Shown: one piece after another, positions 23,628 through 29,192 of the stretch
Numbering within the stretch: the first letter of the stretch is position 1
How the letters are laid out: each line of letters opens with the position of its first letter
From: Aurantimonas sp. Leaf443
GTDB lineage: Bacteria > Pseudomonadota > Alphaproteobacteria > Rhizobiales > Rhizobiaceae
Assembly: GCF_001425575.1 (NCBI RefSeq)
Contig: NZ_LMRD01000009.1
Span: forward strand, 1 to 64,000
Direction: 5' to 3'
DNA length: 64,000 nucleotides
Notes under the pieces: generated by a model
Seen by the model: only the letters and a program-made list of their open reading frames with translations
Told to the model about the DNA's origin: nothing
The model's database searches: none
Position numbers and translations under genes: made by a program

Positions 23628-27140
<3,513 letters not shown>

Positions 27141-27210
27141 CGGGCTCTGTCCGGTCGGCTCGCTCGCGCGCGGACGCCCCGCCGGGAGGGCAGGGTCGCA
27201 CGGTCGAGGG

Positions 27211-27239
27211 ATATAAGGTCAAGCGCGGCTTATAGGCAA
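27211..27239 (-). promoter_or_regulatory. Candidate carB promoter
   Basis: On the minus strand TTGCCT (27239-27234) and TTATAT (27216-27211) are separated by exactly 17 bases. The transcript would start near 27204, leaving a leader of about 60 bases before carB. This would allow carB to be expressed independently of carA. Confidence 0.45.
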
Positions 27240-27279
27240 AGCGGGCGCGCGGCGAAAGGCCCGATCACGCCCGAGCGTG

Positions 27280-27519
27280 TCAGGGCGCGGCGATCTCGGC
27301 CGCGCTGGAGGGCAGGCGGCGCCCGTCGTAGCGCTCGTAGCCGAGCGAGACGGCGAGGCAGGCGAGCTCGACCGTCCTCGGGATCTCGACCGATTTCCCG
27401 TCCCGGTCGCCCTTCTCGTAATACTGGATGACGCGCTTCTTCAGCCCGAGCTTGTCGGCCGCATCCTTCTGCTTGAGCCCGAGGCTCTTGCGCCAGGCCT
27501 TGAAGGCATCGGCATCCAT
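27280..27519 (-). CDS. Small XRE-family helix-turn-helix regulator
   Basis: A 79-residue protein that is almost entirely one Cro/C1-type HTH domain: FKAWRKSLGLKQKDAADKLG is helices 1-2, and LGLKKRVIQYYEKGDRDG is the recognition part. The rest (PRTVELACLAVSLGYERYDG) is a short helix typical of these mini-regulators. It lies between carA and carB on the same strand and divergent from a 44-codon ORF. Paired inverted repeats in the 267-base gap are likely operators, so autoregulation is plausible. Whether it has anything to do with carAB is unknown. Confidence 0.8.
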   Translation of the reverse strand: MDADAFKAWRKSLGLKQKDAADKLGLKKRVIQYYEKGDRDGKSVEIPRTVELACLAVSLGYERYDGRRLPSSAAEIAAP

Positions 27520-27644
27520 CGCGCGTCTCTCCGTTCGAGTTCCGGTGTCAGGTGGGGGCGAAGCCCGCAGAACGGCCTTGCCGGACAGGCTGGGCCGCCT
27601 GCCGGCTCGTTAGCGGCATGAATCGCGAACCGCAAAGAGAAAAT

Positions 27645-27691
27645 GCACGATGTGCGCGTTTTGCCATCTTGTAATGGCGCACGAAGTGCGC
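27645..27691. promoter_or_regulatory. Paired inverted repeats, probable operator of the XRE regulator
   Basis: Two related dyads: GCAC-GAT-GTGC (27645-27655) and GCGCAC-GAA-GTGCGC (27677-27691). Their centres are 34 bases apart, about three helical turns, on the same face of DNA. The second dyad lies between TTGTAA (27669) and TTATCT (27695), a possible promoter for the plus-strand small ORF, though the spacing of 20 is long. A third dyad GCCAT/ATGGC overlaps at 27664-27678. Confidence 0.6.
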
Positions 27692-27786
27692 ATCTTATCT
27701 GCAGTGGACGATCACCGACAGTGAGGACGAGGGTCGTAAGGCCGCACGGACACACGGGAAAACAACGCCAGCGAAGGAGCGCAGCC

Positions 27787-27921
27787 ATGCTTGCAGACAT
27801 CATCATCGGACGGTCGGCCTTCGGCGGGGACCGAGAGCGCGACGACCTTCACCGCCATGCCACCTTCAGCTGCGGGGTGCGCAGCTGGGTGAAGCGCATG
27901 GTCGCTCGCCTGTCCGCCTGA
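27787..27921 (+). CDS. Hypothetical 44-residue protein divergent from the XRE gene
   Basis: A short ORF, ATG at 27787, with AAGGAG eight bases upstream. The product begins MLADIIIGRSAFGG and ends with a basic helix RSWVKRMVARLSA; it has one Cys and no signal peptide or membrane segment. The good ribosome-binding site, a preceding dyad region and a hairpin 28 bases after the stop support a real gene. I do not recognise the family. It could be a small effector, antitoxin-like partner, or leader product of the XRE locus. Confidence 0.5.
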   Translation: MLADIIIGRSAFGGDRERDDLHRHATFSCGVRSWVKRMVARLSA

Positions 27922-27948
27922 CGCCGTTTCGCGCGATCTTCACATACG

Positions 27949-27980
27949 AACGCCGCCGGAGCTGATGCTCCGGCGGCGTT
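27949..27980. terminator. 14-bp hairpin between small ORF and carA
   Basis: AACGCCGCCGGAGC (27949-27962) pairs perfectly with GCTCCGGCGGCGTT (27967-27980) around TGAT. It lies between converging genes and could end both, but neither side has a proper T-run. Confidence 0.6.
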
Positions 27981-28007
27981 GCTGCATGCCGAATTGGACG
28001 TCCGCGC

Positions 28008-29192
28008 TCAGGCGGCGGCTTTCGCCTTGTGCTCGTCGATCAGCCGGAAGAAGCGGTCGAAGAGATAATGCGAGTCCTGCGGGCCCGGCGAGGCCTCGGG
28101 ATGGTGCTGCACGGAGAAGACGGGCTTGTCGGAGAGGCGCAGGCCGCAGTTGGAGCCGTCGAAGAGCGAGCGATGGGTCTCCTCCACGCCCTGCGGCAGC
28201 GAGCCGGCGGCGACGGCGAAGCCGTGATTCATCGAGACGATCTCCACCTTGCCGGTGGTGAAGTCCTTGACCGGGTGATTGGCGCCGTGATGGCCCTGAT
28301 GCATCTTCTCGGTCGTGGCGCCGAGCGCCAGCGCCAGAAGCTGGTGCCCGAGGCAGATGCCGAAGATCGGCACGTCCTTCTCCACCAGTTCGCGGATCAC
28401 CGGCACCGCATACGCGCCCGTCGCCGCCGGATCGCCGGGACCGTTGGAGAGGAACACGCCGTCCGGCTTGTGCGCCATGATTTCCTCGGCCGTCGCCGTG
28501 GCGGGCATCAGCACGACCTTGGCGCCCTGGCCGGCCATGAGGCGCAGGATATTGCGCTTGGTGCCGTAGTCGATGGCCACCACGGTGTAGCGCGGCTCGG
28601 CGTCGGTGCTGTAGCCGACGTTCCAGGCCCAGGGGCCCTCCTGCCAGGTCGCGGTCTGCTGCGTGCCGACGTCCTTGGCGAGATCGAGGCCGACGAGGCC
28701 GCTCCACGAAGCCGCGCGCGCCTTCAGCGCCTCGACGTCGAAGACCCCGTCCGGCGCATGGGCGATCACGGCGTTCACGGCGCCCTTCTCGCGGATGAGG
28801 GCGGTGAGGGCGCGCGTGTCGATGCCCGAAAGCGCGACGACGCCGCGTGCCGTCAGCCAGGCGTCGAGATCGCCGGCGGAGCGGTAGTTGGAGGGTCCGG
28901 AGACCTCGGCGCGGAAGATGGCGCCGACCGCGCCCCGGCCGTTCATCGGCACGAGGTCCTCGTGGTCCTCGTCATTGGTGCCGACATTGCCGATATGGGG
29001 GAAGGTGAAGGTGACGATCTGCCCGGCATAGGAGGGGTCGGTCAGGATCTCCTGGTAGCCGGTGAGCGCCGTGTTGAAGCAGACCTCGCCTTCCACCGCG
29101 CCCGGCGCGCCGAGGCCGGTTCCCTCAATCACGGTGCCGTCGGCGAGGACGAGAAGGGCGGTCGGCTTGGTCTTGGTCCAGCCTTCGGTCAT
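28008..29192 (-). CDS. carA: Carbamoyl-phosphate synthase small chain
   Basis: A 394-residue glutaminase subunit that feeds ammonia to CarB. The N-terminal small-chain domain shows EGEVCFNTALTGYQEILTDP (20 residues); the C-terminal class I amidotransferase has the nucleophile in FGICLGHQLLALALG and the catalytic His in HHPEASPGP. ATG at 29192 (MTEGWTKT) gives the family's length. It is divergent from the YqeY-like gene and separated from carB by the XRE locus, unlike the tightly joined carAB of enteric bacteria. Confidence 0.96.
   Translation of the reverse strand: MTEGWTKTKPTALLVLADGTVIEGTGLGAPGAVEGEVCFNTALTGYQEILTDPSYAGQIVTFTFPHIGNVGTNDEDHEDLVPMNGRGAVGAIFRAEVSGPSNYRSAGDLDAWLTARGVVALSGIDTRALTALIREKGAVNAVIAHAPDGVFDVEALKARAASWSGLVGLDLAKDVGTQQTATWQEGPWAWNVGYSTDAEPRYTVVAIDYGTKRNILRLMAGQGAKVVLMPATATAEEIMAHKPDGVFLSNGPGDPAATGAYAVPVIRELVEKDVPIFGICLGHQLLALALGATTEKMHQGHHGANHPVKDFTTGKVEIVSMNHGFAVAAGSLPQGVEETHRSLFDGSNCGLRLSDKPVFSVQHHPEASPGPQDSHYLFDRFFRLIDEHKAKAAA

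Follow-up and report, generated by a model that had tools for sequence, protein, structure and literature searches.

An unannotated small-protein gene and an Aca-like regulator gene between carA and carB of Aurantimonas sp. Leaf443: a probable chromosomal two-gene switch

What is a small XRE regulator gene, accompanied by two matching dyads and a divergent ORF of only 44 codons, doing between carA and carB in Aurantimonas sp. Leaf443, and is the short ORF a gene at all? Within the window (i.e. the whole stretch of DNA that was analysed, 64,000 nucleotides at positions 1 to 64,000 of contig NZ_LMRD01000009.1), carB starts at 27140 and carA stops at 28008, both on the minus strand, with ~ 0.87 kb separating the two; these coordinates confirm that the locus splits carA from carB, as a preliminary description of this DNA had claimed. 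The components named in that description (a mini HTH protein, dyads with centres 34 bp apart, a divergent ORF with a ribosome-binding site, and a hairpin) were each found at the locus, with both dyads located between the starts of the XRE gene and the small ORF, the latter being divergent from the XRE gene and convergent with carA. The nearest row to the window on a carB tree is Aureimonas sp. Leaf427. The features are as follows:

27280..27519, minus strand: XRE/HTH_3 gene, predicted to encode an Aca-like, single-domain repressor of 79 aa (Pfam HTH_3 4.1e-8; AF2 pLDDT 93.5)
27607..27635, minus strand: weak candidate XRE promoter as read from the sequence (TTGCGG and TAACGA boxes separated by 17 bp), located beyond dyad 2 on the side of the XRE gene
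27643..27657, unstranded: dyad 2 (ATGCACGATGTGCGC), a predicted operator between both promoters, imperfect beyond the GCAC/GTGC core
27669..27698, plus strand: proposed small-ORF promoter (TTGTAA and TCTTAT boxes separated by 18 bp, this spacer containing dyad 1), predicted from aligned relatives and missed by a strict scan
27677..27691, unstranded: dyad 1 (GCGCACGAAGTGCGC), a perfect dyad and predicted operator within the small-ORF promoter
27775..27780, plus strand: ribosome-binding site of the small ORF as read from the sequence (AAGGAG, 7 nt ahead of the ATG), with a Shine-Dalgarno-like word in relatives
27788..27922, plus strand: small protein gene S1 (44 aa, new family), with 85 distinct homologues and a median Ka/Ks of 0.14
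27949..27980, unstranded: hairpin with a 14-bp perfect stem and a 4-nt loop, a likely terminator, situated where the small ORF and carA converge, between their stops

Comparison with relatives indicates that the 44-codon ORF is a real, unannotated gene under clear purifying selection. Its family, labelled S1 in the analysis, consists of homologues of 35–60 residues (38–51 residues in 83 of the 85), which start with ATG in 84 cases and with GTG in one, and 82 of which are preceded by a Shine-Dalgarno-like word. Among 54 S1 pairs that are more than 80% identical, Ka/Ks was computable for 52 and was below 1 in all 52, although these pairs share sequences and hence are not independent. The most strongly conserved residues are A25 (85/85), D20 (84/85), R9 and C29 (both 78/85), H22 (76/85) and H24 (60/85), and the conserved motif reads D-x-H-x-H-A-x-F-x-C. 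The proteins have a net charge of + 1 to + 8 (median + 5; + 3 for the window's protein), and the hydrophobic moment of their last 18 residues is higher than the mean of their own shuffles in 80 of the 85 homologues. AlphaFold2 gives the window's S1 two helices (residues 2–11 and 21–43) in a weak model of low confidence (pLDDT 69).

When the 44 residues were searched against 121 relatives with tblastn at a loose limit, many matches were at chance level, while in ten genomes (G040, G020, G022, G120, G004, G084, G093, G099, G085 and G001; E 6e-21 to 0.03) the S1 match adjoins the XRE match of the same genome, on the opposite strand. With a profile of 15 members, S1 was found at E 1e-6 or better in at least 53 of the 397 genomes of the order Hyphomicrobiales, in 51 of which the XRE gene is adjacent and divergent (with a gap of 179–439 bp between the matches), the XRE gene not being found in the other two. 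Two genomes, G131 (L206, 3095–4076) and G167 (L207, 3213–4177), have three tandem S1 paralogues, the second copy being preceded by three dyads of its own. S1 had no family match in Pfam, NCBIfam or PADLOC, and searches of PHROG and of solved chains gave weak matches only (best 0.07 and 0.08), none of them convincing. No credible plasmid or phage homologue was found with the G040 homologue as query, the sole plasmid match having an E of 0.6, for which reason S1 as plasmid or phage cargo was rejected. An RNA family was rejected as well, Rfam being without a match in 27100–28100.

The XRE product consists of a single HTH_3 domain (Pfam, 4.1e-8), and relatives at E 1e-12 are present in 106 of the 397 genomes of the order. 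NCBIfam and PADLOC gave weak matches only, with RstR, HipB and MqsA below the cut-off, HTH_VI at 1e-4 and capH at 1e-3. Among solved sequences, the nearest to the family profile were NE0471 (2e-5) and Aca1 (5e-4), Aca1 being matched at 5e-3 by the single sequence. The fold neighbours of the AlphaFold2 model (pLDDT 93.5) were NE0471 (Z 9.8), Aca10 (8.8), SO3848 (8.6), Aca2 (8.5) and HigA2 (8.5), while Aca1 aligned with a Z of 7.0 over 62 residues at 2.7 A, a Z below 8 being common according to the tool. Foldseek placed NE0471, Aca1 and HipB at the top, none of them at E 0.001 or better, and the model also resembles the SinR and ImmR domains, among others. Since the HTH fold is widespread among XRE groups, the fold alone would not name the XRE protein, and it is the matching core of the published Aca1 operator that gives added weight to the Aca likeness. 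Overall, the protein appears to be Aca-like, with a modest likeness in sequence and with NE0471 equally near. An XRE relative of 44% identity was also encountered in phage MW202613 (L313, 1501–1704), where the record annotates an opposite-strand CDS; no dyads were found near this homologue, nor a clear small partner.

The dyads of the locus are of the GCGCACNNNGTGCGC type, with the core GCAC-N3-GTGC. Single dyads with at most two mismatches are not commoner than chance in the window, which is GC-rich (23 versus 20.8 in shuffles); genome-wide, a loose version of the pattern shows no enrichment either (15 matches versus 25 for a reversed control), the exact 15-mer GCGCACN3GTGCGC being, among the loose-pattern matches, present at this locus only. 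The close pair GCACN3GTGC-N15-25-GCACN3GTGC also has a single occurrence in the 3.9-Mb genome, again at this locus, and a pair that is unique in the genome suggests that XRE acts as a local regulator.

The dyads are closely tied to S1. Dyads were counted over 700 bp upstream of XRE in the best 80 of 163 named loci that encode an XRE relative. A divergent S1 lies no more than 800 bp away in 49 of these loci, all of which carry at least two dyads, whereas none of the 31 loci without S1 does, so that S1 presence and at least two dyads are concordant in 80 of these 80. The preliminary description had let its reading depend on whether relatives that keep the XRE gene also conserve the ORF and the dyads; both have thus been kept in 49 of the 80 loci, the remaining 31 having neither the ORF nor the dyad pair. 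That XRE is retained in these 31 would mean that it has another use, or that its decay is slow. Fourteen of the 31 were inspected, among which L161, L172, L177, L184 and L185 have kept a single dyad immediately ahead of a TTGACA that is oriented toward XRE; four of them (L161, L172, L184 and L185) are Stappiaceae without S1, where the single dyad looks as if autoregulation alone persisted. On the carB tree (built on the 70 of 81 rows whose sequence sufficed), S1 requires 11 changes, and on supported branches the dyads follow S1 in six out of six independent pairs (p 0.031), the number of independent pairs rising to 11 if unsupported branches are admitted.

The link is not a strict one. In G228 and G110 an S1 homologue adjoins carA or carB, but a search at E 1e-8 found no XRE in either genome, and the homologue has no convincing dyads near it, which is evidence against a strict association of S1 with XRE. 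In the same way, a strict association of dyads with S1 is contradicted by 40 further loci of the order with XRE and without an S1 match, nine of which have at least two dyads within 900 bp (own count, under a loose rule); an S1-like divergent ORF start is present in four of these nine (G170, G276, G253 and G190), and none was recognised in the other five. G055 has its XRE gene on another contig (L217, C23) without dyads, while its S1 ORF is on C46 (L216) with two dyads, 62 bp apart, upstream of S1 and between S1 and carB; this arrangement would reflect either a mixed bin or an XRE that acts in trans.

The position of the dyads relative to the S1 promoter suggests what they are for. At least two dyads lie within 400 bp upstream of S1 in 78 of the 85 homologues (one in four, none in three), the commonest spacing of neighbouring dyads in relatives being 30–34 bp. 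Of the 77 loci with at least two dyads in 320 bp, 67 have a dyad centred in the spacer of the best sigma-70-like S1 promoter, compared to ~ 5 by chance as derived from the share of positions, and many aligned relatives read TTGAC-dyad-CATATT or TTGAC-dyad-CATCTT. The window's own boxes (TTGTAA, 18 bp, TCTTAT) are a poor match, and a strict sigma-70 scan of the focal region listed no promoter. A scan flagged dyad 1 as terminator-like, a reading that was rejected because a -10-like sequence follows the dyad in relatives; it is for this reason that dyad 1 is read as an operator. Past the S1 gene, a perfect stem of at least 8 occurs within 80 nt in 44 of the 85 homologues, versus 0.3 in single-base shuffles. 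As predicted from these comparisons, the S1 layout is that of a repressible, self-terminated small gene, and, with a dyad in the spacer of its predicted promoter, XRE most likely represses the S1 ORF and regulates its own expression.

What probably exists here, in our judgement, is a chromosomal two-gene switch with an Aca-type repressor, from which S1 is released on a fall of free repressor. XRE would be a single-domain repressor of the Aca type, acting as a dimer on each GCAC-N3-GTGC dyad. Bound to dyad 1, it would lie in the spacer that separates the -35 and -10 boxes of S1, thereby blocking RNA polymerase, and on dyad 2, beside its own promoter, it would set its own level. The small gene would normally be low, to be released by a signal once free repressor drops. 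Its basic product of ~ 44 residues, with two predicted helices (low confidence) of which the second would be amphipathic, may then inhibit or modulate a partner (i.e. a protein, a nucleic acid or a membrane surface) by binding to it. The repression, the induction and the action of the small protein are what we infer; the reality of the gene, its conservation, the linkage between dyads and S1, the promoter geometry and the Aca-like fold are supported by comparison. The suggestion of a self-contained switch with a predicted translated small protein has in this respect held up, the ORF, dyads and hairpin all recurring in relatives. Points against the switch are the poor focal -35 and -10 boxes with the negative strict scan, the weak S1 model (pLDDT 69), the modest Aca sequence likeness, and the weak matches to HipB, MqsA, RstR and capH.

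The regulator half of the locus has much in common with Aca repressors. It shares the single-domain HTH fold and a similar recognition region with Aca1 above all, and also with Aca2 and Aca10, a fold that is not Aca-specific. The Aca1 probe given in the figure 3 legend of PMC9410881 contains the repeats GGCACACTGTGCC and GGCACAATGTGCC, whose core is likewise GCAC-N3-GTGC; by our own count on that probe these are 25 bp apart, in contrast to the mostly 30–34 bp of the locus type. According to PMC9410906, Aca repeats lie inside core promoters, several families have another repeat besides, the tested Aca proteins act as repressors, and most aca-like genes occur without acr genes ('solo'). The locus type has a similar geometry, one repeat falling within the predicted core promoter (67 of 77 loci; by inference in the window itself) and another nearby.

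As in acr-aca systems, a small-protein gene is under predicted control. Unlike in acr-aca operons, where aca is downstream in the acr operon, S1 is divergent (in 51 of the 53 S1 genomes), and S1 and XRE are chromosomal, whereas acr is usually on a mobile element. S1 furthermore belongs to no known family and was no anti-CRISPR according to any library searched. A strict-sense anti-CRISPR role for S1 is unlikely and was rejected, since cas1 is present in 20 of the 58 genomes with an S1 homologue and absent from 38, including the window's genome.

The preliminary description knew of no described system of this form. For the locus as a whole this stands within the open-licence literature, which was the scope of the search (subscription papers being outside it) and which held no account of the XRE/S1 pair, the S1 motif or the operator; for the regulator half it does not, given the resemblance to Aca repressors. 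The regulator belongs to a type already known; the small family, the divergent chromosomal layout and the exchange of cargo next to one regulator/operator type appear to be new.

This change of cargo becomes visible beyond the order. In a class sample of 385 genomes, S1 was found, among the at most 19 candidates scored per genome, in the window's own genome only, while XRE was found in 30 genomes, own included. Of the 31 other XRE loci, which lie outside the order, 30 (in 29 genomes) were examined; under a stricter rule, and by our own count, one or more dyads occur in the 1 kb ahead of XRE in 20 of these 30. A divergent short ORF of two other groups is present in 16 of the 30, i.e. S2 (~ 80 residues, 7 loci) and S3–S6 (~ 40–57 residues, 9 loci); these groups were assembled from the listing, and their profile matches are mostly self-matches, L246 being the sole independent match (1e-22). 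Profile comparison found no detectable likeness between S1 and the small ORFs of other orders (probability of at most 4, compared to 29 over 18 columns for a diverged S1b group), and hence no sign of a common origin. Neither carA nor carB was found in the stretch examined at any of these 30 loci. At one locus outside the order (L245, G609), two divergent ORFs of the S3 group lie in series beside XRE and two dyads.

A toxin-antitoxin-like pair had also been considered, in which the small basic protein would be toxic and XRE would protect by repression, and perhaps also by binding. The fold of XRE does resemble those of the HigA2, MqsA and HipB antitoxins, the HTH domains of NE0471 (2auw) and of HigA2/MqsA-type antitoxins being the closest or near-closest to its own (in NE0471, a chain of 170 aa, the second half alone matches). 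The S1 products are small, basic and mostly amphipathic, the predicted operator lies inside the promoter, and XRE loci without the small gene are common, as would be expected if that gene were harmful. However, antitoxins of type II sit in one operon with their toxin, whereas S1 and XRE are divergent and form no single operon; S1 matches no toxin family, has no credible plasmid or phage copy (G040 homologue as query), occupies one chromosomal neighbourhood across many genera, and is retained without XRE in G228 and G110. The pair thus fares poorly on its divergent genes, its fixed neighbourhood in many genera and the two genomes with S1 alone, and we consider it rather unlikely.

Alternatively, S1 could be an antirepressor comparable to SinI, which would bind XRE and lift its repression in a feedback switch that needs no other effector. 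The XRE model is without a ligand domain and has a likeness to the SinR and ImmR domains (among others), S1 presence nearly always comes with XRE, and, as in SinR/SinI and other XRE switches, an XRE domain adjoins a gene for a short protein. Unlike SinR, XRE has no second domain, and SinI was not listed among the solved chains by the S1 profile. Moreover, the same XRE lies beside small ORFs without detectable S1 likeness in other orders, two genomes have S1 without XRE, and many have XRE without S1, which makes this a doubtful explanation.

The preliminary description further thought of a regulator of carbamoyl phosphate supply, with XRE or S1 acting on carA or carB, and indeed 70 of the 80 named loci have carB on the strand of XRE and downstream of it (mostly 0.4–0.6 kb off), while S1 stays beside carA or carB without XRE in G228 and G110. 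Yet carA and carB are found in none of the 30 XRE loci outside the order, the window is without a dyad between XRE and carB, and both car genes persist where the ORF and the dyad pair have been lost. The XRE of other orders, with similar dyads, adjoins other small ORFs away from carAB, which leaves a role in carbamoyl phosphate supply unsupported, and the position beside carAB is accounted for by shared ancestry; regulation of carAB was rejected as very improbable. Finally, that the ORF is untranslated, the dyads and hairpin serving an RNA or the autoregulation of XRE alone, is scarcely credible and was rejected on the set of 85 homologues and Ka/Ks: the terminator-like flag on dyad 1 and the negative strict promoter scan would fit it, against which stand Ka/Ks values below 1 in 52 of 52 (non-independent) pairs, the conserved start, length and ribosome-binding site, and the absence of an Rfam match.

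A chromosomal two-gene switch would add an unannotated small-protein family with a ready-made regulatory handle, and would place predicted Aca-like control sites on ordinary chromosomes, away from known anti-CRISPR genes. It is conceivable, albeit speculative, that it represents an old alphaproteobacterial class of Aca-type switch, in which one repressor and operator control interchangeable, unrelated small proteins (S1 in Hyphomicrobiales, other families outside that order) as host-owned inhibitors of a cellular or anti-phage machine, and to which phage aca1 and its operator are related or from which they were recruited. Because other orders have differing small ORFs next to one type of repressor and operator, the latter may be used to find small proteins that annotation pipelines have missed, and may offer a route to asking where the Aca repressors of phages came from.
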